From the NCBI RefSeq assembly GCF_009498525.1, contig NZ_QSNT01000002.1:868001-932000 (forward strand): DNA of 64,000 bases. Direction: 5' to 3'. Under the pieces are notes generated by a model. That model did no database searches and was not told where the DNA came from. It worked only from the letters and a program-made list of their open reading frames with translations. The position numbers were made by a program, and so were the translations under genes. This stretch comes from Rhizobium sp. ICMP 5592 (GTDB taxonomy: Bacteria > Pseudomonadota > Alphaproteobacteria > Rhizobiales > Rhizobiaceae). Shown one piece after another: positions 1 to 12,673 of this stretch (position 1 is the first letter of the stretch; each line of letters starts with the position of its first letter).

Positions 1-776
1 TCCACATCGCCGATCGGCGCGGGATCGCGCAGGGCGCCGATCAGGAAATCGATCTCCCCGCGTCTGAGTCCGGCCAGAAGATCGGCATAGGGGCCTTCCA
101 CGACCTGGATCGGTATTTTGGGGCGAAGCGCGCGGAAGTTGGCGATTGCCTGCGGCAGGACATAGGACCGCGACAATGGCATTGCGCCGATGACGATGCG
201 CCCGGCCTCTTCGGATACAGTTTCCGCAAGATCGGCTTCGGCCTGGCTGAGTTCGGCGAAGGCAAGTCTTGCCGCCTGGGCGAGCGTCTGCGCCGTCCGC
301 GTCGCGACGATGCCATAGGAGGTCCGTTCGAACAGGGGGCGGGCTGCCTCCTGTTCGAGTTGGGTGACAGCGCGATGCACGGTCGGCTGGGCAAGCCCGA
401 GGCGTCGCGCTGCGAGTGTAAAATTTTCCATTTCACGCACGGCAATCAGCGCCTGAAGCTGCGCCGTGGTCGCGGTGATACGCAGCCTGGGGCTGAGATC
501 GGACAGCGCCGGATCGAGATAGCCGAAGGCGCGGCGGACGCGTTTTGCAAGGACCTCGCCCTGCTTGTTGACGAACAGTCCCTGGGCGGTCCTCGTGAAG
601 AGCGCCATACCGACGCCGCGTTCGATTTTCGACAGGGCCTGGGTCACGGCCGGCTGCGACACATGACATAGTTCCGCAGCTTTCGTGACCGAGGCCGTAT
701 CCACGACCATCAGGAACACCCTGAGATGGCGAAGATTGTGCTGCAGCTCCGGCTCTGACGATTGTGCGGAATTCAA
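1..776 (-). CDS. LysR-type regulator with tandem HTH domains (C-terminus outside window)
   Basis: Transcriptional regulator, probably of the adjacent aromatic-acid genes. I read 258 codons in one open frame from a TTG at 776 to the window edge. A first LysR-type winged HTH covers about residues 14-75 (SVTKAAELCHVSQPAVTQAL). A second, independent one covers about 104-165 (FTLAARRLGLAQPTVHRAV). The effector-binding fold begins near residue 190 and is cut by the edge. The TTG overlaps the stop of the upstream dehydrogenase gene (773-775), which implies translational coupling. Later GTG or ATG starts would remove part of the first HTH. Duplicated HTH domains are unusual for the family, whose members normally have one. 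By context it is the counterpart of GalR of gallate clusters; that is inference. Confidence 0.85.
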   Translation of the reverse strand, partial: MNSAQSSEPELQHNLRHLRVFLMVVDTASVTKAAELCHVSQPAVTQALSKIERGVGMALFTRTAQGLFVNKQGEVLAKRVRRAFGYLDPALSDLSPRLRITATTAQLQALIAVREMENFTLAARRLGLAQPTVHRAVTQLEQEAARPLFERTSYGIVATRTAQTLAQAARLAFAELSQAEADLAETVSEEAGRIVIGAMPLSRSYVLPQAIANFRALRPKIPIQVVEGPYADLLAGLRRGEIDFLIGALRDPAPIGDV

Positions 777-1657
777 GACAGGAGGTGCTCCAATATCAGG
801 TCGACACGCTGGGTTAGCGAGAGATCTGCGGCGCTGAGGCCAAGCTTTCCGATTCGACGCTGCCAGTCGACGGCCGCCGATGCCATTCCGTCGGGAAGGC
901 CGAGATCGCGAAGCGTCACCGCCACTTCCTCCATCTCGGCTGCGCGCCGCGTTCCGTGCACCATCATCCGTTCGAGGTTGTAGGACGAACGGGCCGTCCA
1001 GTCGATCCCCGGATCGGAGGCCTGCAAGGAAGCCAGAACGGCATCCTCCACGCCCGCGCGCCGCGCCGCCAATACACATTCGGCTGTCAGCGCCTCGAAC
1101 CCCTTGATCATGACCGAGCGCAGCATCTTGATCGAGGATGCCTGCCCGATCTTGTCGCCGGCAATGCAGGCATTCATTCCAAGGCTTGTCAGCAAGGTCT
1201 CGGCTTCTGCTGCCTCGTTGCCGGCCAGAAGGAGAGGGGTGCGATGGCGGGCGGGATAGACCGGCGCCATCACCGCGACGTCGACATAACGGACGGCGGC
1301 TTCCTCGACGATCTTAGCGGCGGCGACCTTCGTCGATGGCGAGCAGGAATTGCAGTCGAGATAGAGCGCGCCCTTGTCGAGGTGGGCGGCCACCATCTTT
1401 GCGGCTTCGAGCGCGCGGTCAGCGGTCACGAGGCTGAAGATTGCGCCTTTGCCGTTCGTCGCGTCGCGCGGGCTTTCGCCACATGCAACGTCCAGCCGAG
1501 CACAGGCTTCAAGAAGGTCCCGGCGATGTTCTGTGCTTTTTATCTTGATGTCGAAGGTGGTGATGGGAGCTTTGATCGGGCTACCTTCGATAGTCTTCCA
1601 GCCGGCGACAAAGGCCTGTGCTGCTTCCCCAAATCCAATGAGTGCAATCGTCGACAT
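773..1657 (-). CDS. NAD(P)-dependent oxidoreductase, DUF1932 / 6-phosphogluconate dehydrogenase-like
   Basis: Predicted 294-residue dehydrogenase of the beta-hydroxyacid dehydrogenase superfamily. The N-terminal Rossmann motif GFGEAA is at residues 8-13. The mid-protein motif SSIKMLRS has the position of the catalytic lysine segment, and the all-helical C-terminal part fits DUF1932. I prefer the ATG at 1657 because GAGGAA precedes it and the Rossmann strand follows at once; an in-frame ATG at 1681 is possible. It lies between the importer genes and the LysR gene, with a LysR box 41 bases upstream of its start. Substrate unknown: context points to a hydroxy or oxo acid of the ring-cleavage pathway. 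A paralogue lies at 11837-12673. Confidence 0.85.
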   Translation of the reverse strand: MSTIALIGFGEAAQAFVAGWKTIEGSPIKAPITTFDIKIKSTEHRRDLLEACARLDVACGESPRDATNGKGAIFSLVTADRALEAAKMVAAHLDKGALYLDCNSCSPSTKVAAAKIVEEAAVRYVDVAVMAPVYPARHRTPLLLAGNEAAEAETLLTSLGMNACIAGDKIGQASSIKMLRSVMIKGFEALTAECVLAARRAGVEDAVLASLQASDPGIDWTARSSYNLERMMVHGTRRAAEMEEVAVTLRDLGLPDGMASAAVDWQRRIGKLGLSAADLSLTQRVDLILEHLLS

Positions 1658-1697
1658 GCTGCCGGTTCCTCGTGCGAACATTCAGCCAAACAAAGGT

Positions 1698-1712
1698 ATA
1701 GCGAAAACTTAT
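1698..1712. promoter_or_regulatory. Candidate LysR box (ATA-N9-TAT)
   Basis: ATAGCGAAAACTTAT is a T-N11-A dyad of the LysR type. It differs by one base from the box at 6611-6625 and shares half-sites with the box at 6558-6572. It sits upstream of the leftward dehydrogenase-LysR transcript, so it would serve both that unit and autoregulation. Confidence 0.6.
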
Positions 1713-1761
1713 CGTGAGGACCGCAGCATAGCCGCGATCCTCGTATCGTATGGTCCCTCGC

Positions 1762-2928
1762 TTAGTGGGCCGGATCCTTGACGTTGTCGTAGGTCTGGAA
1801 CTCGACGTTGTACAATTCTCCGCCGACCTTCTCGACCTTGCGCATGTAGATATCCTGGACGATATCCCGTGTTTGCGGATCGATCGAGATCGGGCCTCGC
1901 GGGCTCGGCAACTGCATGCCCTTGGCGGCGTCAACGAATGTCTGGCCGCTGGCGTCGCCCTTGGTCTTGTCGAGGGTCTTGTAGATCAGGTCGAGGGCAT
2001 CCCACGCGGCGACGGCGACCATGTTGGGGCGCATGCCGTCATTGGCCTTCTTGAAGGCTTCCACGAAAGCCTTGTTCTCCGGGGAATCATGGTTTGCGGA
2101 ATAGGGGCCGCCGGTGATGACGCCGATGGTCGGGTCGCCCATGTTGTTCAGCAGGTCGTCATCGGTGACGTCGGCCATGGCGATGACCTTGATGCCCGAC
2201 TTGTCGAGACCGCGCTCGACAAACTGCTTCATGAAGGCCGCACCCGCACCCGTCGGAACGAAGACGAAAAGCGCTTCCGGCTTTTCATCGGCGGCGCGCT
2301 GCAGGAAGGGCGCGAAGTCCGGATTGGCAAGCGGCACCTTCAGCTTCGAAACGACCGTGCCGCCATTGGCCTCGATCGTCTGCTGGAACCATTTTTCCGC
2401 GTCGGCGCCCGGACCGTAGTCTGAAACGATGCTGACGAATTTCTTCGCGCCGTTTTCCGGAGCCCACTTGCCGATGACGCTAGCCATTTGCGGGACAGTC
2501 CACGACGTTCGGAGAATGTAGGGCGAGGCATCCACGATCGAGGAGGTCGCGGCCACCATGATGACTTGCGGGATCTTGGCGCGCTTGGACAGTTGCGCCA
2601 CGGAAAGGGCTGCAGGCGTGTTGCCGAAGCCGGTCAGGATAGACACCTTGTCGTTGGTCACCAGTTCCTGCGAGAGACGCAGCGCGTTGTCGGCGGCGCT
2701 TCCGTCGTCCTTGACGATGAGCTCGACTTTCTTGCCGCCGGCGGTATCGCCCTTGGTGGCGACGTAGGTCTTGATCGCGGCGCTGATCTGGCGGCCGTTG
2801 GACTGGAACCCGCCGGTGAGCGGAATGACGACGCCAACCTTGACGGCGTCCTGCGCAAAACTCATTGTGGGAGCCCCGATCAGGGCGATTGCGGCGACGG
2901 CGCCTAGCGCCAGTTTCTTAATGCTCAT
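1762..2928 (-). CDS. ABC transporter substrate-binding protein, branched-chain/aromatic acid class
   Basis: Periplasmic binding protein of 388 residues in the LivJ-like (Peripla_BP_6) family. A Sec signal peptide is visible at residues 1-25 (MSIKKLALGAVAAIALIG..., cleavage after SFA). The mature part begins with KVGVVIPLTGGFQSNGR, the typical first strand of this family. RBS AGGAGGAGAG precedes the ATG. It is the last gene of a five-gene leftward importer unit, 78 bases after the second ATPase gene. Such binding proteins take up branched-chain amino acids but also aromatic acids. Because the divergent genes degrade a ring-cleavage product, an aromatic carboxylate is the likelier ligand; that is inference. 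Confidence 0.9.
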   Translation of the reverse strand: MSIKKLALGAVAAIALIGAPTMSFAQDAVKVGVVIPLTGGFQSNGRQISAAIKTYVATKGDTAGGKKVELIVKDDGSAADNALRLSQELVTNDKVSILTGFGNTPAALSVAQLSKRAKIPQVIMVAATSSIVDASPYILRTSWTVPQMASVIGKWAPENGAKKFVSIVSDYGPGADAEKWFQQTIEANGGTVVSKLKVPLANPDFAPFLQRAADEKPEALFVFVPTGAGAAFMKQFVERGLDKSGIKVIAMADVTDDDLLNNMGDPTIGVITGGPYSANHDSPENKAFVEAFKKANDGMRPNMVAVAAWDALDLIYKTLDKTKGDASGQTFVDAAKGMQLPSPRGPISIDPQTRDIVQDIYMRKVEKVGGELYNVEFQTYDNVKDPAH

Positions 2929-3006
2929 GTCTCTCCTCCTGTTGAAAAATCTATGTGCTGTGCATGCCGTTCAAGCCGGCCCTCTTTCCGGCGTAGACCT
3001 GGGCGA

Positions 3007-3756
3007 TCAGTGTTTTTGTTGCGCGGCGGCTGGCGTTGCGGTCGACGACGCCCCCGCGCCGACCCCAAGGAATTTGCCCAAGGTCGAGTTGTCCTGTGCC
3101 AAGGCAGCACTGCTTCCAGAATAGGCGACTGCGCCACGCTCTAGGATCACGGCCTTGTCGGTGATCGCCAGGATTTGCTGCGCGTGCTGCTCCACGATGA
3201 TGGCGGCCATTCCCTCGCCGCGGACGATGCGACGGATGGCAGTCAGCAATTCCTCTACAATGATCGGTGCGAGCCCCTCGGTCGGCTCATCGAGCAGCAG
3301 GATCTTCGGATTGAGAACCAGTGCCCGGGCGATCGAGAGCATCTGCTGTTCGCCGCCCGACAGTTGGTTGCCGTAGTTGTTGCGGCGTTCTTCCAGCCTC
3401 GGGAAGAGCAGGTAGACGGCCGGAAGGCTCCATTTCCCGGGGCGTGTAACCGCCGTGATATTTTCCTCGACCGTCAAAGACCTGAATATGCCGCGCTCCT
3501 GCGGCACCCAGCCGACACCGGCCTCGACGCGACGTTCCGGTGTCAGTCGTTCGATGCTCTGGCCGCCAACGGTGATTTTGCCACCGTGATAGCGCGTCAG
3601 GCCGACGATGCTGTTGAGCGTCGTCGTCTTGCCGACGCCGTTGCGGCCGAGGAGAGCGACTGCTTCGCCCGGACCCACGGAAAGGCTGACGCCGTGCAGG
3701 ACCACGGCTTTGCCATAGCCGGCCTTCAGGCCGTCCAGTGTCAAGAGTTCAGGCAT
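3007..3756 (-). CDS. ABC transporter ATP-binding protein, LivF type
   Basis: Cytoplasmic ATPase subunit of 249 residues that powers the importer with its LivG-type partner. Visible motifs are Walker A GRNGVGKTT near residue 37, signature LSGGEQQ and Walker B LLLDEPTEG. Start at 3756 is chosen because GGAGGGGCG lies just upstream and the fold begins with LLTLDGLKAGYGKA; the frame is open further upstream without family similarity. It overlaps the LivG-type gene by 8 bases. The C-terminus carries an Ala-rich tail of about 20 residues (GAGASSTATPAAAQQKH), which is longer than usual and probably unstructured. Confidence 0.9.
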   Translation of the reverse strand: MPELLTLDGLKAGYGKAVVLHGVSLSVGPGEAVALLGRNGVGKTTTLNSIVGLTRYHGGKITVGGQSIERLTPERRVEAGVGWVPQERGIFRSLTVEENITAVTRPGKWSLPAVYLLFPRLEERRNNYGNQLSGGEQQMLSIARALVLNPKILLLDEPTEGLAPIIVEELLTAIRRIVRGEGMAAIIVEQHAQQILAITDKAVILERGAVAYSGSSAALAQDNSTLGKFLGVGAGASSTATPAAAQQKH

Positions 3757-4504
3757 GGTGCGCCCCTCCGAGATAGACTTCCTTGACGCGGGGATCTGTC
3801 GAAATCTCATCGACGGTGCCTTCCGCGAAGAGCGCGCCCGCGACGAGAACCGAGATCCGGTCGGCGAAATTGAAGACCAGGTCCATGTCGTGTTCGATCA
3901 GCAGGATCGAGACATCGGCGGGTAGTGCCGTCAGCCTTGCCAGAACCTCGTGCCGGTCGGCTTCCGGCACGCCGGCCGCCGGCTCGTCGAGCAGCAGAAC
4001 CTTGGGCTTGCAGGCAATCGCCATGGCGATCTCGAGAAGCCGCTGCTTGCCATAGGGCAGGCCGGAGCAGGGTTGGTCGAGCACCGTGTCCAGACCGAAA
4101 TCCTGGACTAGCCCGGCAATCTCGTCCTCGATGCCTGGAAGCTTGCCGGCGAAACGGAACCAGTCCTTGCCGCGTCCCTGCCGTTCGCTGATGACGAGGC
4201 CCAGGCTTTCCACGACAGTCAGATCGCCGAAGAGCTGGTTGATCTGAAACGTCCGGACCAGGCCGCGCTGCACGCGCTTTTCGCGCTTGAGCGACGAGAT
4301 ATCCTCGCCATTCAGCAGGATCTGACCGCTTGAAGGCGTGAGCACGCCGGTCAGAAGGTTGATCAGCGTTGTCTTGCCCGCGCCGTTGGGTCCGATCAGC
4401 GCGTGGCGAGCGCCGCTTTTCAGGCGGAACGAGACATCTGTCGTGGCCCTCAGGGCGCCGAACATCTTGTTGAGCTGTCTGGTTTCGAGAACGGCGGTGG
4501 TCAT
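3749..4504 (-). CDS. ABC transporter ATP-binding protein, LivG type
   Basis: Cytoplasmic ATPase subunit of 251 residues. Walker A GPNGAGKTT is near residue 37, then signature GLPYGKQRLLEIAMA, a variant of LSGGQ that is normal for the LivG branch, and Walker B LLLDEPAAG. It has the LivG-type NPKXRxVQRGLVRTFQ-like region (KREKRVQRGLVRTFQ), which marks it as LivG rather than LivF. GGAGGG precedes the ATG at 4504. It overlaps livM-like by 4 bases and the LivF-type gene by 8, so the unit is tightly coupled. Confidence 0.9.
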   Translation of the reverse strand: MTTAVLETRQLNKMFGALRATTDVSFRLKSGARHALIGPNGAGKTTLINLLTGVLTPSSGQILLNGEDISSLKREKRVQRGLVRTFQINQLFGDLTVVESLGLVISERQGRGKDWFRFAGKLPGIEDEIAGLVQDFGLDTVLDQPCSGLPYGKQRLLEIAMAIACKPKVLLLDEPAAGVPEADRHEVLARLTALPADVSILLIEHDMDLVFNFADRISVLVAGALFAEGTVDEISTDPRVKEVYLGGAHHA

Positions 4505-5550
4505 GGTGCCCTCCGGGTCGACGCGCGGCCTCTGAAGAGGTTACCGCGGATGGCTGCGAGGCGGGCGGAAAGCGAAAGCATGAGCTGGCGCGGACGGTCG
4601 CGCCCGAAGAGAACGAAAGTGACCAGCAGCATGCCGAGCCAGAATTGCCAGTATTGCGGCGTGAGCGACGACAGTCCGTCCTGGATCAGCTCATAGACCA
4701 GGGCGCCGATGATACCGCCGTAGAGATAGCCTGTGCCGCCAATGACCAGGATCATCAGGCTATCGGCGGATTTCTGAAACGACAGCGCATCCAGCGAGAT
4801 GAATTGCTGCGTCTGGGCAAACAGCGCGCCGGCGATCCCGGCATAGGCGCCGGAGAGAGTGTATATGGCCACCAGGCGCGCGTTGACGGGAACGCCCACG
4901 GCTGAAGCGCGCAACGGATTGTCCCGGATCGCCTTCAACGAATAACCGAAAGGCGAAGAGACGATCAGCCGTGCCAGCAGGAACAGCAGGAACAGCACGG
5001 CAAGGCTGTAGGCGTAGCCGGTATGTCCATAGATATCGAAGTCGAAGACGCCGAAGAGCGGTTCGATGGTAATCCCTTGCAGGCCGTCGGCGCCACCGGT
5101 CAGCCAGTTCGCCTGATTGGCGATTTCGGCAAAGACGGCGGCAACGCCGAGCGTCACCATCAACCGTGTCAGGTCGCCGCCGCGCAGCAACAGGAAACTG
5201 GTCAGGAAGGCAACGATCGCGCCAGAGAGTGCGCCGACAACCAGTCCCGACAGCGGCTCGCCAGTGACGTGGATCGAGAAGAGGCCGCTTGCATAGGCGC
5301 CGACGCCATACATGGCCGCCTGACCGAGGGAGACGATGCCGGCATAGCCGAGGATCAGGTCGATCGAGAGAGCGAGAATGGCGAAACCGACGATCTCGGT
5401 CAGGATCAGATGCTGGTTGGGGAAGAGGAACCAGGAGGCGAGCGCGAGAGCCCAGAATGCCAGTTCAAGGACGCTCCAGCGCGCCGATCTCCTCATGACG
5501 TCTGATACCCGCTGCTTCAGAGCAGGGATTGCGGAATGGGATGTCTGCAT
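4501..5550 (-). CDS. ABC transporter permease, LivM type
   Basis: Inner-membrane permease of 349 residues. Around eight to ten hydrophobic segments are visible, with the family region LILGYAGIVSLGQAAMYGVGAY near residues 66-87 and the EAA-like loop SPFGYSLKAIRDNPLRASAVG that docks the ATPase. The start at 5550 shares a base with the stop of the LivH-type gene (TGATG). The Arg-rich tail after the last membrane segment (FRGRASTRRAP) is cytoplasmic. It pairs with the LivH-type permease to form the channel of the importer. Confidence 0.9.
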   Translation of the reverse strand: MQTSHSAIPALKQRVSDVMRRSARWSVLELAFWALALASWFLFPNQHLILTEIVGFAILALSIDLILGYAGIVSLGQAAMYGVGAYASGLFSIHVTGEPLSGLVVGALSGAIVAFLTSFLLLRGGDLTRLMVTLGVAAVFAEIANQANWLTGGADGLQGITIEPLFGVFDFDIYGHTGYAYSLAVLFLLFLLARLIVSSPFGYSLKAIRDNPLRASAVGVPVNARLVAIYTLSGAYAGIAGALFAQTQQFISLDALSFQKSADSLMILVIGGTGYLYGGIIGALVYELIQDGLSSLTPQYWQFWLGMLLVTFVLFGRDRPRQLMLSLSARLAAIRGNLFRGRASTRRAP

Positions 5551-6404
5551 CAGTTGGCCCTCGCGAAGAGACCCTGGGGTCGGACGACCAGCACCGCCAC
5601 GAGGATGATATAAATGATGAAGCCGCCGAGCGACGGCACGTAATATTTGCCGAGAACGTCGGCGACGCCGAGAAGGATGGAGGCACAGAGAGGGCCGTAC
5701 ATGCTCGACGTCCCGCCGACGGAAACGACGATCAGGAAGTAGACCATGAACTTCAGCGGGAATGTCGGATCGAGACCGAGGATCTCGGCGCCTAGCGCGC
5801 CACCAAGACCGGCGAGGCCGGATCCGACCGCGAATGTCACGGCGAAAATCGTGTTGACGTGAATACCGACGCCGCGAGCGACGCGCCGGTCATCCACGGA
5901 TGCGCGCAGCCGGCTCCCAAATCGCGTACGGGCGAGGATCATTTGCAGAGCAATGGCGAGCGCGCCGCAAACGAGGATGAGAAAGGCGCGATAGACGCCG
6001 ATGCCCACGCCCAGCACATCAACGCGGCCACGCAGAAAGTCCGGCAGGTTCAGGATCTGCTGCTGCGATCCCATGACGTAATCGATGCCGGCAACCGCCA
6101 TGAAGACGATGCCGATCGAAAACAGCACCTGGTCGAGCGGCGTCTTGTCGTAGAGGCGCGCATAGAGGGTCTTCTCGAGAATGACCCCGGCAATTGCCGT
6201 GGCAATGAAGGCGATCGGCAGCGTCAGCAGAAAGGGGACGCCCAATCGGTTCGTCAAAATGACGGTGACGTAGCCGCCAGCCATCGCGAAGGCGCCGTGC
6301 GCCAGGTTGATGAAATTCATCAATCCCAGGGTGACGGCCAGTCCGCAGGATAGCACGAACAGCAGCATGCCATAGGCGAGGCCATCGAATAAAAGGGTTA
6401 GCAT
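5550..6404 (-). CDS. ABC transporter permease, LivH type
   Basis: Inner-membrane permease of 284 residues, first gene of the leftward importer unit. Start at 6404 is chosen because GGGAGGAAAA precedes that ATG and the protein then opens with the typical first membrane helix and GLMNFINLAHGAFAMAGGYV. The longer frame to 6578 has no family similarity. The conserved cytoplasmic loop TRFGSRLRASVDDRRVARGVGI is at about residues 175-196. The 296 bases between this start and galB form the divergent control region with two candidate LysR boxes. Confidence 0.9.
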   Translation of the reverse strand: MLTLLFDGLAYGMLLFVLSCGLAVTLGLMNFINLAHGAFAMAGGYVTVILTNRLGVPFLLTLPIAFIATAIAGVILEKTLYARLYDKTPLDQVLFSIGIVFMAVAGIDYVMGSQQQILNLPDFLRGRVDVLGVGIGVYRAFLILVCGALAIALQMILARTRFGSRLRASVDDRRVARGVGIHVNTIFAVTFAVGSGLAGLGGALGAEILGLDPTFPLKFMVYFLIVVSVGGTSSMYGPLCASILLGVADVLGKYYVPSLGGFIIYIILVAVLVVRPQGLFARAN

Positions 6405-6557
6405 TTTTCCTCCCTGTCCCGGATAACGCTCCTCCGAGGCCGCCAGATCTGGCCGTTTCTCCCGAACGCATCTTTCGCAGGACCTTTTGGGTCTTGAATG
6501 GTGATTAGCCATGACGGGAAGCGGGGCGATTGCCCATTTCAAAATGGTCGCCGCCTC

Positions 6558-6572
6558 ATAAGAAAAAGCTAT
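6558..6572. promoter_or_regulatory. Candidate LysR box in the livH-galB control region
   Basis: ATAAGAAAAAGCTAT matches ATAAG-N5-GCTAT, the reverse complement layout of the boxes at 1698 and 6611. It is 53 bases from the neighbouring box, about five helical turns, so both could be on one DNA face. It lies nearer the leftward importer promoter. Confidence 0.5.
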
Positions 6573-6610
6573 AGGCACCTTGCCGGGAGCGCGCCTCCAT
6601 CGACGCGGCT

Positions 6611-6625
6611 ATAGCCAAAACTTAT
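6611..6625. promoter_or_regulatory. Candidate LysR box upstream of galB
   Basis: ATAGCCAAAACTTAT is a T-N11-A dyad differing at one base from the box at 1698-1712, and the similarity continues to the right (CGGTGAGG against CGTGAGG). It ends 75 bases before the galB start, a usual place for a LysR activator site. Confidence 0.6.
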
Positions 6626-6700
6626 CGGTGAGGCATCAAATCCAAATTGGCAAAGGACCCCCTCCGGCGTGAAATCACGCGCAATTCGGAAGGAGATCCC

Positions 6701-7435
6701 ATGTCGGAACAAAAGACTGCACTTGTCATCAGCGCACACGCGGCTGACTTCGTATGGCGCTGTGGCGGCGCGATCGCGCTGCATGCGGAGCTTGGTTATA
6801 AGGTGACCGTCGTTTGCCTGTCCTTCGGCGAACGCGGAGAATCCGCCAAGCTCTGGAAGCAGCCGGGCATCACGCTGGATCAGGTCAAGGCGGCGAGACG
6901 GGCGGAATCGGAAAAGGCGGCCAAGGCGCTCGGCGTCCATGATCTTATCAGCTTCGACCTCGGCGACTATCCACTTCGTCTCACGGACGAGGACAAGTAC
7001 CGGTTGGTCGATGTGATCAGGAAGGTACAGCCGGCCTTCATGCTCAGCCATTCGCAGTATGATCCCTATAATACCGACCATATGTATGCGACGCAGGTTG
7101 CGCTCGAGACGCGGATGATCGCGCAGGCCTGGGGTCATAATCCCGGCGAGAAGGTGCTCGGTGCACCGCAGCTTTACCTGTTCGAGCCGCATCAGACCGA
7201 GCAGATGGGCTGGAAGCCCGATGTCTTCCTCGACATCACCTCTGTCTGGGACAAGAAGCGCGCCGCCATCGAATGCATGGAGGGACAGGAGCATCTCTGG
7301 GAATTCTACACCCGCGTTGCCCAGAACCGCGCCAATCATTTCCAGCGCAATTCGGGCGGTCAGTCGGGCGGCCGTGCCTCGAAATATGCCGAGGGTTTCC
7401 AGTCGGTCTTTCCACGCACGGTCGATGAGCTCTAA
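6701..7435 (+). CDS. galB: 4-oxalomesaconate hydratase, PIG-L family (GalB-like)
   Basis: Predicted to hydrate the ring-cleavage product 4-oxalomesaconate to 4-carboxy-4-hydroxy-2-oxoadipate in the cytoplasm. The 244-residue protein has the PIG-L metal site in the form AHAAD (His13, Asp16) with the third ligand likely His127 (NTDHMYA). It keeps the GalB-type block TVVCLSFGERGESAKLW at residues 36-52, which separates GalB from the sugar deacetylases of this fold. Start at 6701 has GGAAGGAG in front. It is the first gene of a rightward operon with the dioxygenase, galC and galD; its stop overlaps an in-frame ATG of the next gene. Assignment rests on motif recall plus the galC/galD context. Confidence 0.8.
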   Translation: MSEQKTALVISAHAADFVWRCGGAIALHAELGYKVTVVCLSFGERGESAKLWKQPGITLDQVKAARRAESEKAAKALGVHDLISFDLGDYPLRLTDEDKYRLVDVIRKVQPAFMLSHSQYDPYNTDHMYATQVALETRMIAQAWGHNPGEKVLGAPQLYLFEPHQTEQMGWKPDVFLDITSVWDKKRAAIECMEGQEHLWEFYTRVAQNRANHFQRNSGGQSGGRASKYAEGFQSVFPRTVDEL

Positions 7436-7458
7436 TGAGCTCTCGAGAGGAGCGTGAC

Positions 7459-8412
7459 ATGGAACCCTGTTTCGATATCGCCCATCTGGCGCATGTGGAG
7501 ATGTATTCTGACAAGTTCGAGGAAAGCCTCGACTTCTTCGTGAACGTCTATGGACTGACGGTTGCTGGGCAGGACGAGCAGTCGGCCTATCTGCGGGCGT
7601 GGGACGATTACGAGTTCCACACGCTGAAGCTCACCCGGCATCACACCACGGGTGTCGGGCATATCGCCTATCGGGTGTCATCCGAGGCGGCATTGGAGCG
7701 GCGCGTCAAGGCGATCGAGGCGAGCGGCTTCAAGGTTCTCGGCTGGGTCGACGGCGATCTCGGCCATGGCCGCGCGTTCCGGTTCGAGGATCCGTTCGGC
7801 CATGTGTTCGAAATCTATTGGGACACTGTTCGCTATTCGCCGCCAGAGCAGGAAAAGCCGGCGCTGAAGAATGTCGCTCAGCGATATCATGCGCGCGGCT
7901 GCCATCCGCGTCGTCTTGATCATCTGAACTTGCTCGCCTCTGATGTTGCCGAGTTCAGGCGCTTCATGGAGACCTGCCTCGGTTCGCGCGTGACAGAGAT
8001 GATCCAGCTCGACAATGGCAGGCTCGGCGGATGCTGGTTCACCGTCAACAACAAGACCTATGATCTCGCCTGCACCGAAGAGCATGGTGGCGGAGGCGGG
8101 CGTCTTCATCATGTGACCTACGCCACCGACAGCCGCGAAGAGATATTGCGCGCCGCCGACATCTTTCTCGAAAACGGCGTGCACATCGAGACCGGTCCGC
8201 ACAAGCATGCGATCCAGGGCACTTTCTTCCTCTACGTCTGGGAGCCCGCCGGCAACCGTGTGGAACTCGCCAATTCCGGCGCACGCTTGATCCTGGCTCC
8301 CGATTGGAAGCCCGTGGTCTGGACGGAGACGGAGCGCAAGAAGGGGCAGGCCTGGGGATTGAAGACGATCGAGACTTTCCACACCCACGGGACGCCCCCG
8401 GTCAAAAAATAA
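7459..8412 (+). CDS. Type I extradiol dioxygenase-like protein, two VOC domains
   Basis: A 317-residue protein with the catechol 2,3-dioxygenase/homoprotocatechuate 2,3-dioxygenase (HPCD) architecture: a non-catalytic VOC domain at about 5-122 and a catalytic one at about 150-272. Iron ligands are present: His155 (LDHLN), His218 (LHHVT) and Glu269 (GNRVEL). So are the second-sphere residues His250 (GPHKH) and Tyr259 (FLYVWEP). The position of HPCD His200, the acid-base residue, is Tyr201 here (NNKTYDLA instead of VHDTA), followed by a Gly-rich insertion. ATG 7459 has GAGAGGAG upstream; ATG 7435 (overlapping the galB stop) would add eight residues. It occupies the slot of GalA, which is unrelated. 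The substrate is probably a trihydroxybenzoate or other carboxylated catechol; this is inference. Confidence 0.8.
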
Positions 8413-8423
8413 GGAGACGTGTA

Positions 8424-9095
8424 ATGGGTATTGTTGTGCAGGATGTTGCTCGGGTTTCGCAGGATGTGATCGACCGGTTGGCACATGCCGGGGTCGCGAC
8501 CGTGCACGAGGCACAGGGCCGCAAGGGCATGCTCGCCAGCTACATGCGTCCGATCTATGCCAGCGCCCAAATCGCCGGTTCGGCCGTGACCATATCGGCT
8601 CCTCCCGGAGACAACTGGATGCTGCATGTGGCTATCGAGCAGCTGAAGCAGGGTGATATTCTCGTTCTCGCGCCGACCTCACCCTGCGACAACGGCTATT
8701 TTGGCGATCTGCTTGCGACCTCGGCAATGGCGCGCGGATGCAAGGGCCTTATCATCGACGCCGGCGTCCGGGACATTCGCGATCTCACGCAGATGGGCTT
8801 TCCGGTCTGGTCGAAGGCGATATCGGCGCAGGGCACCGTCAAGGAGACGTTAGGCTCGGTCAACGTGCCGGTGGTCTGTGCGGGCGCCTATGTCGAGGCT
8901 GGCGATGTCATCATCGCCGATGATGACGGCGTCTGCGTCGTCAAGCGCGAGGAGGCGGAAGCCGTTATTGTCGCGGCGGAGACGCGCCTGGCCAACGAGG
9001 ATGCCAAGCGCAAGCGGCTTGCGGCCGGAGAACTCGGACTGGACATCTACGGAATGCGGCCGACGCTGCTCGCAAAGGGGCTGAAATATGTATGA
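8424..9095 (+). CDS. galC: 4-carboxy-4-hydroxy-2-oxoadipate aldolase / oxaloacetate decarboxylase (RraA fold)
   Basis: Class II aldolase of the RraA/HMG-CHA family, 223 residues, splitting 4-carboxy-4-hydroxy-2-oxoadipate to pyruvate and oxaloacetate. Visible family blocks are [19 protein letters not shown] near residue 74, [21 protein letters not shown] and the divalent-metal/substrate segment [18 protein letters not shown]. Start at 8424 has AAGGAGACGT directly upstream; the frame runs open back to 8304 inside the preceding gene. It overlaps galD by 8 bases. This enzyme joins the gallate and the protocatechuate 4,5-cleavage pathways, so by itself it does not fix the upper substrate. Confidence 0.87.
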
Positions 9096-10143
9096 GGACG
9101 GTATCCCTTGCCTGTGGATGCGAGGGGGTACCTCCAAGGGCGCGTATTTCCTCGCCGAGCATCTCGCTGCGGCCCCCGCCGAACGCGACACGCTGCTGCT
9201 GAAAATCATGGGTTCGCCTGATCCCCGCCAGATCGACGGAATCGGTGGGGCCGATCCGCTGACGTCGAAGGTCGCCGTCCTGTCGGCTTCGACGCGCGCT
9301 GACGCCGATGTGGACTATCTGTTCCTTCAGGTCTTCGTGGACCAAGCGCTCGTCAGCGATGCGCAGGGATGCGGCAACATTCTTGCTGGCGTCGGTCCGG
9401 CGGCGATTGAGCGTGGTCTCGTCAAGTCGATCGACGGCATCACCGAGGTTCGCATCCACATGCTGAATTCCGGCGAGGTGGCGGTCGCACGGATAGAGAC
9501 GCCGGGCGGTCGTGTGAACTATGCCGGCGCCACCGAAATTGCCGGTGTTCCCGGCAGCCATGCCGCTGTCCCTTTGCTGTTCATGAACATCGCCGGTTCG
9601 ATGTGCGGCGCGCTGCTGCCGACCGGAAACGAGGTCGATGTCATCGACGGGATAGAGGCGACTTTGATCGATAACGGCATGCCCTGCGTCATCATGCGGG
9701 CCGCCGACTTCGGGCTGACGGGGGAGGAGACCCGCGAGGCGATCGAAGCCAATGCCGAGCTGAAGTCGCGGATCGAGGCCATCCGCCTGAAAGCTGGCCC
9801 GATGATGAACCTCGGCGATGTCAAAGCCGCTTCTGTGCCGAAGATGACCCTGGTGTCGGCCCCAAAGCACGGTGGCGCGATCTCGACTCGGAGCTTCATC
9901 CCGCACCGGGTTCATGCGTCTGTCGGCGTTCTTGCCGCCGTTACGGTTGCGACCGCGACGCGCTTGGCAGGTAGCCCCGCCGCGCAATTGGCGACGGCCC
10001 CGTCGGATGGGCGTTATCTGATCGAGCATCCGACCGGCGCGATGGAGGTCTTTCTGGATATTGGCGATGATGGTTCGATCAAGGGAGCGGGGACGGTCAG
10101 GACGGCACGGAAGCTGTTTGATGGCCGGGTCTTCGCGGGATGA
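9088..10143 (+). CDS. galD: 4-oxalomesaconate tautomerase, PrpF family (GalD-like)
   Basis: A 351-residue PrpF-fold isomerase. It should convert the keto to the enol form of 4-oxalomesaconate ahead of the GalB hydratase. It opens with [16 protein letters not shown], the PrpF/GalD start, and has [18 protein letters not shown] at about residues 92-109, where the Cys is the family's general base, and [20 protein letters not shown] near 266-285. The ATG overlaps the end of galC. A strong hairpin 75 bases after the stop closes the operon. PrpF proper (aconitate isomerase) is the alternative, but no methylcitrate genes are nearby. Confidence 0.85.
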
Positions 10144-11836: not shown

Positions 11837-12673
11837 ATGGATATCGGAGTCATTGGGGCCGGTGCGATGGGAAGCGCCATCGCGGGGCGGTTGGTCGAGG
11901 GTGGCGCTCACGTTCTCACTTATGTTGAAGGCCGCTCACCAGCGACCATAGAGCGGGCCAGGGCGGTGGGCATGAAGGCCGTCGGGCTGGATCGCCTTGT
12001 CGAGGCCGACATCATCCTCTCCATCGTTCCGCCCGCGGAGGCCATTGGCGTGGCCGAGCTTCTGTCCACCGCATTGCGACGCCTTGGCAGGACGACCACA
12101 TTCATAGACTGCAATGCGATCTCGCCGAAGACGATGGCGCAGGTTGCATCGGTCTTCGGTGCCGATCGTGGCGATGTGCTGGACGGATCCATCATTGGTG
12201 CGCCGCCGAAGCCCGGCCAGAAAGGTCCCAAGCTTTACATCAGCGGCGATGCCGCAAACAGGAGCGGCGTGCTTGCGGACCATGGGCTTCAGGTGCGCCG
12301 GATCGATGGAGGGATCGGGGCCTCGTCGGCACTGAAGATGTGCTATGCCGGCATCAACAAAGGCGTTACGGGCCTCGGCACCGCCATGCTGCTTGCCGCG
12401 ATCAGGTCCGGAGCGGATGAGGGCCTGAAACGGGAACTCGAAGAAAGTCAGTCCGACCTTGACCGCAAGTTTGCCCAGAGCATTCCGGACATGTATCCGA
12501 AAGCCTATCGCTGGGTTGCGGAAATGGAAGAGATCGCCGAGTTCCTGGGCGAGGACGATCCCGCCGCCTTGATCTTCAAGGGCATGGCCGGCCTCTATCG
12601 CAAGATGGCCGACGACCGCGAGGCCGGCGGTATGCTTGCCGGCGAATTGGATCGGCTCAACGGCGGTGCTTGA
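11837..12673 (+). CDS. NAD(P)-dependent oxidoreductase, DUF1932, second copy
   Basis: A 278-residue paralogue of the dehydrogenase at 773-1657. The Rossmann motif GAGAMGSAIAG is at residues 7-17, FIDCNAISPKT follows the same pattern as LDCNSCSPSTK in the first copy, and SSALKMCYAGINKG carries the presumed catalytic Lys. GGAAGGAG precedes the ATG. It stands alone between the glycosyltransferase and folA. An imperfect ATA-N10-TAT dyad at 11735-11750 lies about 87 bases upstream. A shared role with the gal-type island is plausible but unproven. Confidence 0.82.
   Translation: MDIGVIGAGAMGSAIAGRLVEGGAHVLTYVEGRSPATIERARAVGMKAVGLDRLVEADIILSIVPPAEAIGVAELLSTALRRLGRTTTFIDCNAISPKTMAQVASVFGADRGDVLDGSIIGAPPKPGQKGPKLYISGDAANRSGVLADHGLQVRRIDGGIGASSALKMCYAGINKGVTGLGTAMLLAAIRSGADEGLKRELEESQSDLDRKFAQSIPDMYPKAYRWVAEMEEIAEFLGEDDPAALIFKGMAGLYRKMADDREAGGMLAGELDRLNGGA

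Follow-up and report, generated by a model that had tools for sequence, protein, structure and literature searches.

The reaction that we propose here for a rhizobial enzyme, ring opening of gallate to 4-oxalomesaconate, is also that of GalA from Pseudomonas putida and DesB from Sphingobium SYK-6, with GalD, GalB, and GalC as partners (PMC12314914, PMC3962378, PMC9942251). In P. putida the ring-opening product of GalA is processed by these three proteins (PMC12314914, PMC9942251). DesB is a type II enzyme in which OH(3) and OH(4) of gallate bind the iron and Glu377' holds OH(5). Its His192 is called essential and is matched in position by His194 of the type I enzyme BphC (PMC3962378), and an enzyme that lacks this histidine is therefore notable. 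Ring opening of gallate has so far been credited to the type II family, which is unrelated to type I. In a review database, gallate dioxygenases are assigned to the LigB superfamily, and the portion of its type I list considered here names catechol, dihydroxybiphenyl, homoprotocatechuate, and other dioxygenases and has no gallate entry (PMC4250580). The type I enzyme BLC23O was inactive on pyrogallol (PMC8671467), and one paper reports a phenol-loss assay in which gallic acid was among the phenolics treated with it (PMC9925492). Among the open-licence PMC papers listed by full-text searches, no title or abstract opening describes a type I gallate dioxygenase.

In a window of 64,000 nucleotides from Rhizobium sp. 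ICMP 5592 we identified a gal operon that encodes GalB, GalC, and GalD together with a dioxygenase of another fold. We conclude that this protein is probably a gallate dioxygenase of the type I (VOC) fold, with the task that GalA and DesB carry out on the unrelated type II (LigB) fold. Its substrate and product are inferred from gene context; the clade, the residue pattern, the neighborhood, and the co-occurrence with gal genes are observed. The gene order is galB-VOC-galC-galD, all on the forward strand. galB (6701-7435), for a 4-oxalomesaconate hydratase of the PIG-L fold, was recognized by PF02585 on a longer ORF and by its best PDB match, 5cgz ("4-oxalmesaconate hydratase", E 2.8e-94). galC (8424-9095), for 4-carboxy-4-hydroxy-2-oxoadipate aldolase, scores 371.7 bits against TIGR02798 (cut-off 304.5), and galD (9088-10143), for 4-oxalomesaconate tautomerase, scores 498.7 bits against NF033377 (cut-off 440). 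Between galB and galC, the dioxygenase gene (7459-8412, +) is an open reading frame with a product of 317 aa. The longest ORF begins at 7435, whereas the ATG at 7459 is closely preceded by a ribosome-site-like GGAG sequence, and the alignments of 80 named relatives begin at query residues 1 to 6, mostly 1 or 2. The gene is under purifying selection: relative to locus L003, its 317 codons show 55 synonymous against 5 nonsynonymous changes.

The protein is a type I extradiol dioxygenase, as defined by the VOC fold and a 2-His-1-Glu iron site, that lacks the acid-base histidine of the class. Glyoxalase/VOC domains are present, with PF00903 above its cut-off, and PF02900 (LigB) has no match at E 0.001. 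The best NCBIfam match is TIGR03211 (catechol 2,3-dioxygenase; 309.8 bits, under the curated cut-off of 320.2), and TIGR02295 (homoprotocatechuate 2,3-dioxygenase HpaD) gives 203.8 bits, under its curated cut-off of 321.4. An AlphaFold2 model, built on an alignment of 37 sequences of which the other 36 are 81-93% identical to the query, has a pLDDT of 82.1 and a pTM of 0.85, with low confidence at residues 298-317. Almost the full length of the model matches solved type I dioxygenases. The nearest solved folds are an RHA1 dioxygenase (3lm4; Z 37.3, rmsd 2.6 Å, 308 residues) and AphC (7q2a; Z 36.7); XylE gives Z 35.2, and homoprotocatechuate 2,3-dioxygenase (HPCD, 1f1x) matches with Z 31.2 and an rmsd of 3.0 Å over 292 residues.

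The residues of the active site were assigned in an alignment of 124 sequences. HPCD residues H155, N157, W192, H200, H214, H248, Y257, and E267 correspond to H155, N157, W193, Y201, H218, H250, Y259, and E269 of the query, so that all but His200 are kept. The iron ligands H155, H218, and E269 are invariant in all 124 rows. The alignment thus bears out the original prediction in its iron ligands, in the second-sphere residues His250 and Tyr259, and in the central claim that Tyr201 (codon TAT, 8059-8061, +) takes the position of HPCD His200. The same prediction saw a Gly-rich insertion (HGGGGGR) after this tyrosine, and here it was mistaken: the loop at 206-217 has 12 residues in 113/113 Tyr rows and in 8 of the 11 His rows, its glycines vary, and it is HPCD that is shorter. 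The equal loop length in these eight His relatives rules out a special insertion. DesB is a type II enzyme that keeps its catalytic His192 (PMC3962378), whereas the query is a VOC-fold protein that PF02900 does not match and that carries Tyr in the acid-base position.

Other pocket positions have changed as well. Thr245, Gln253, Ala271, and Ala275 of the query fall on HPCD positions 243, 251, 269, and 272, which line the substrate pocket. HPCD has the carboxylate-binding Arg243, Tyr269, and Asp272 where the query has Thr245, Ala271, and Ala275. Given these differences, Tyr201, whose placement in the pocket is predicted from the alignment, would be one part of a remodelled pocket. All 113 Tyr rows share Tyr51, Glu52, Asn198, and Lys199, and 112 of them have Arg276, at a position where His rows have Phe or Tyr. 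Two histidines, His209 (107/113) and His248 (111/113), are also enriched in the Tyr clade, and either could possibly stand in as the acid-base residue.

Among solved structures, the tyrosine is already present in one, PDB 9wgj ("Catechol 1,2-dioxygenase"), which is the closest solved sequence (362.5 bits) and belongs to the Tyr clade. It lacks Arg276, Thr245, and His248, which most other Tyr members have, and may therefore have another substrate. The code 9wgj was found in no open-licence PMC paper, and the entry is absent among the fold matches listed for the model. The 50 fold entries listed include HPCD variants H200E, H200N, H200Q, H200C, and others, and none with Tyr at position 200. The two nearest folds both have His at the Tyr201 position; 3lm4 has the same 206-217 loop length as the query but falls outside the Tyr clade.

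The original prediction rested on one sequence, and a survey of position 201 across homologues gives its tyrosine a much wider base. Tyr was found at 96 of the 97 loci of our first collections, the exception being a 35% identical paralogue with His (L002), and in 113 of the 124 aligned sequences, the other 11 having His; a sequencing error or a one-strain oddity is ruled out by these counts. A tree was built from 53 reduced sequences, 42 with Tyr and 11 with His; although HPCD, 3hpv, L002, and 3lm4 form long branches in it, the Tyr rows lie on one side of a single branch with support of 98/97. Among the relatives in which the residue was read, a set of retrieved loci, all those at least 52% identical to the query have Tyr and all those below 48% have His. 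Within this set, L166-L169 (26-30% identical) have His and L176-L179 have Tyr. Carriers of the Tyr enzyme include Rhizobium, Agrobacterium, Rhodobacteraceae, Pantoea and other enterobacteria, Thermus oshimai, Roseomonas, Nonomuraea, and Methylobacterium currus. Family f35 contributes ten genomes with a close relative, and the nine in which the residue was read (L120 being counted for G093) all have Tyr. The gene is accessory, the Tyr enzyme being present in 16 of 100 relatives and, within the window's genus, in 12 of 60 genomes. The Rhizobium genome also encodes the His-type paralogue (L002; L114 7296-8297, contig C22), with a small LigA/LigB-like pair some 10 kb away from it.

The tyrosine marks a clade tied to gallate-type catabolism. 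We collected 80 related loci from named genomes with 8-kb flanks, 15 of them shorter than 16.9 kb; all three gal genes are present in 58, at least one in 64, and the exact order galB-VOC-galC-galD in 40. Across the collections as a whole, some loci represent one genome reached by two routes (L014/L088, L006/L123). The 16 genomes without a nearby gal gene all carry galC above the cut-off elsewhere. A further 24 Tyr loci with long flanks, some from the same genomes, include 17 with a gal gene detected by probe (L098, L100, L103, L117-L119, L122-L124, L155-L160, L163, and L165). No gal gene was detected by probe in the extended flanks of the other seven (L099, L102, L120, L121, L161, L162, and L164); at L099 an annotated aldolase is cut at the locus edge. 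The actinomycete Nonomuraea has a contiguous galB-galC-galD-VOC set. Homologues with His in the same gene context, which would have counted against the original prediction, were sought among seven His-clade loci with long flanks, and none of these has gal genes nearby.

Co-occurrence across genomes points the same way. galD was rejected as a marker of the gallate route when taken alone, as its cut-off is passed by 22 of the 84 relatives that lack the Tyr enzyme and by 1 of 14 control genomes; the statistics are therefore based on galC, whose cut-off is passed by none of the 14 controls. Among the 100 relatives, galC is above the cut-off in 15 of the 16 that have the Tyr enzyme versus 8 of 84 others (Fisher p = 2.8e-11, relatedness ignored), and within the genus the counts are 11/12 versus 4/48 (p = 4.4e-8, relatedness again ignored). 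In the phylum sample, galD is above the cut-off in 10 of 19 Tyr genomes, and the other nine all belong to family f35. The gal genes are imperfect markers: G017, G051, and G058 have galC above the cut-off but lack both the Tyr enzyme and any match to NF009904, the model of GalA/DesB-class gallate dioxygenases, and galD-like genes in the Rhizobium genome itself (G000:C1:672929) and in G058 stand next to a different ABC system, with galB and galC absent. The most distant Tyr member (52% identity, G038) is in a genome with no galC above the cut-off and no gal genes nearby, and probably acts on another substrate. Its gene is flanked by Amidohydro_2 and HpcH/HpaI aldolase genes (L121 8295-10941). 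A second galD-like lineage (L173 8929-9978 and L174 8063-9145), 46-50% identical to galD, passes the 4-oxalomesaconate tautomerase cut-off; its neighbors are a LysR-like gene and a further ABC importer, while galB and galC are missing.

We searched 80 of the 90 sampled genomes that have galD above its cut-off with NF009904 (type II; cut-off 412), and 10 of these 80 pass. None of the 22 with both the Tyr enzyme and galD above the cut-off has a GalA/DesB-class enzyme above the model's cut-off, and 15 of them have no match at E 1e-3. LigB-type matches reach 270-330 bits in six of the remaining seven, but 92.7 and 79.4 bits in the Rhizobium genome. The latter are two of its three LigB-type genes, the third being closest to 4,5-DOPA dioxygenase, and all three were rejected as gallate dioxygenases. 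The broad LigB domain PF02900 has no match in 6 of 16 Tyr genomes, G039 among them. The Tyr enzyme is thus the sole ring-opening candidate seen for the gal route in a number of genomes. A LigB-type enzyme shares the cluster with the Tyr gene at L117 and L099, where labor could thus be divided differently.

By context gallate is the leading substrate candidate, with protocatechuate and 3-O-methylgallate as possible others. It is unlikely that the enzyme is a type I protocatechuate 4,5-dioxygenase, whose product would be oxidized to 2-pyrone-4,6-dicarboxylate and, after LigI-like hydrolysis, enter the GalD/GalB/GalC steps. The oxidation could perhaps be assigned to a cluster partner, a 6PGDH-like oxidoreductase with DUF1932 (773-1681, -; PF09130 and PF03446), whose probe matches 44 of the 80 loci. 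Amidohydrolase genes occur near the Tyr gene in some f35 genomes and, with an annotated ligK, in Methylobacterium currus; in G654 galB, galC, and the Tyr gene adjoin an amidohydrolase that is LigI-like and scores 301.5 bits against NF042924, below the cut-off; and in Thermus oshimai a 4-hydroxybenzoate 3-monooxygenase is nearby. No amidohydrolase, however, is among the genes scanned in the window from 773 to 10143, and rhizobia usually degrade protocatechuate by 3,4-cleavage. NF042924, which models a related hydrolase, was used for the LigI-like search, and no genome passes its cut-off of 500. The Rhizobium genome reaches 238.5 bits, so the protocatechuate route stays conceivable there; of 12 comparison genomes, 11 lie at 175-267 bits and G073 at 135.4. 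Against this route, 9 of 27 Tyr genomes (G021, G028, G036, G038, G042, G082, G754, G288, and G744) have no LigI-like match above 130 bits. Six of these (G021, G028, G036, G042, G082, and G754) have no match to the type II model either, which disfavors protocatechuate in those genomes. A tannase gene (PF07519, 437.9 bits) directly after galD on plasmid pAt of Agrobacterium tumefaciens 186, from walnut (L103 10887-12617), points instead to gallate. A LigM-like O-demethylase, matched by probe at 14 of the 80 loci, is a second sign of gallate supply.

A role in 3-O-methylgallate or syringate breakdown, with gallate cleaved by another enzyme, appears still more improbable. A probe for the O-demethylase LigM matches 14 of the 80 loci, and the two loci scanned both exceed the LigM cut-off of 580 (L074, one of the 14, with 609.9 bits, and L117, a further locus, with 659.5), but 66 of the 80 have no LigM in their flanks. 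The LigA/LigB pair and hydrolase at L117 recall the MgaAB/MgaC set described for Pseudomonas NGC7 (PMC12314914); where present, such a set provides better candidates for that step than the Tyr enzyme. That we are dealing with an ordinary catechol or alkylcatechol 2,3-dioxygenase, the name used in a number of records, in an incidental gal neighborhood seems very doubtful. Its best NCBIfam match and its fold neighbors are indeed catechol dioxygenases, but the score falls below the TIGR03211 cut-off, the acid-base His is missing, and the gal linkage is strong. Moreover, a lower pathway of the dmpG type is annotated in none of the eight Tyr regions read, whereas one adjoins the His-type enzyme of Thermus thermophilus.

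In the mechanism that we propose for gallate, H155, H218, and E269 would hold Fe(II), which would bind two neighboring hydroxyls of the substrate, plus O2, and the ring would open between two hydroxyl-bearing carbons to give 4-oxalomesaconate. This product would be tautomerized by GalD, hydrated by GalB, and split by GalC to pyruvate and oxaloacetate. Tyr201 would take the place of the usual acid-base His, with the third hydroxyl of gallate in the O2 pocket where that His normally works. A hydrogen bond between the two might let Tyr201 and the hydroxyl share proton transfers, and Arg276 may bind the gallate carboxylate; these roles are suggested by sequence comparison. The original prediction of a more electron-rich substrate agrees with the context as far as it goes, gallate having one more hydroxyl than homoprotocatechuate; gallate itself is what we infer beyond it. 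A more radical version, to which we give little credence, is a separate ring-cleaving chemistry on the VOC fold in which the His is dispensable and the third hydroxyl, held by Tyr201, does the proton work, perhaps even with intradiol cleavage by Fe(II). Intradiol cleavage is conceivable since the cleaved bond would join two hydroxyl-bearing carbons, and the name given to 9wgj would fit it. The H200F variant of HPCD is capable of intradiol cleavage.

We consider it most likely that this is a gallate dioxygenase of independent origin. If so, gallate breakdown arose two times over, on folds that are unrelated, and the second version is found in scattered bacteria that include 12 of 60 genomes of the genus, Agrobacterium plasmids, Rhodobacteraceae, and some enterobacteria. 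The enzyme would also be a natural test of oxygen chemistry with the second-sphere His replaced, a long-studied question hitherto addressed with laboratory-made HPCD variants. Numerous database records name the Tyr-type relatives "catechol 2,3-dioxygenase" or "VOC family protein," and the gallate pathway has thus probably been missed in genome annotation.

Several neighboring features deserve mention. The tannase gene was sought in the other loci and in the window and found in none, which rules it out as a common neighbor. The walnut-associated plasmid that carries it is typed as conjugative, and the region is possibly a tannin-use island. At L117 (8816-18016, G014), one cluster unites the Tyr dioxygenase and galBCD with LigM, a LigA/LigB pair, and an alpha/beta hydrolase, and so resembles a joint island for converting vanillate/syringate to gallate. 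The DUF1932 oxidoreductase, despite its probe matches in 44/80 loci, has no step assigned to it in the gallate route described here, and a second DUF1932 protein is encoded in the window at 11837-12673 (+). Upstream of galB, Pfam matches identify a branched-chain-type ABC uptake system (1762-6578, -) with a binding protein (1762-2928), two ATPases (3007-3810 and 3749-4504), and two permeases (4501-5550 and 5550-6578), all on the reverse strand. It possibly takes up the aromatic acid; probes for its binding protein and LivM match 15 and 14 of the 80 loci, respectively. A LysR-like gene (3-776, -) is cut by the left end of the window; its end at about 776 is an estimate within an open-ended ORF (3-1079, -) whose sequence was judged LysR-like by eye. 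The LysR probe matches 52 of the 80 related loci, and this gene is a candidate GalR-like regulator.
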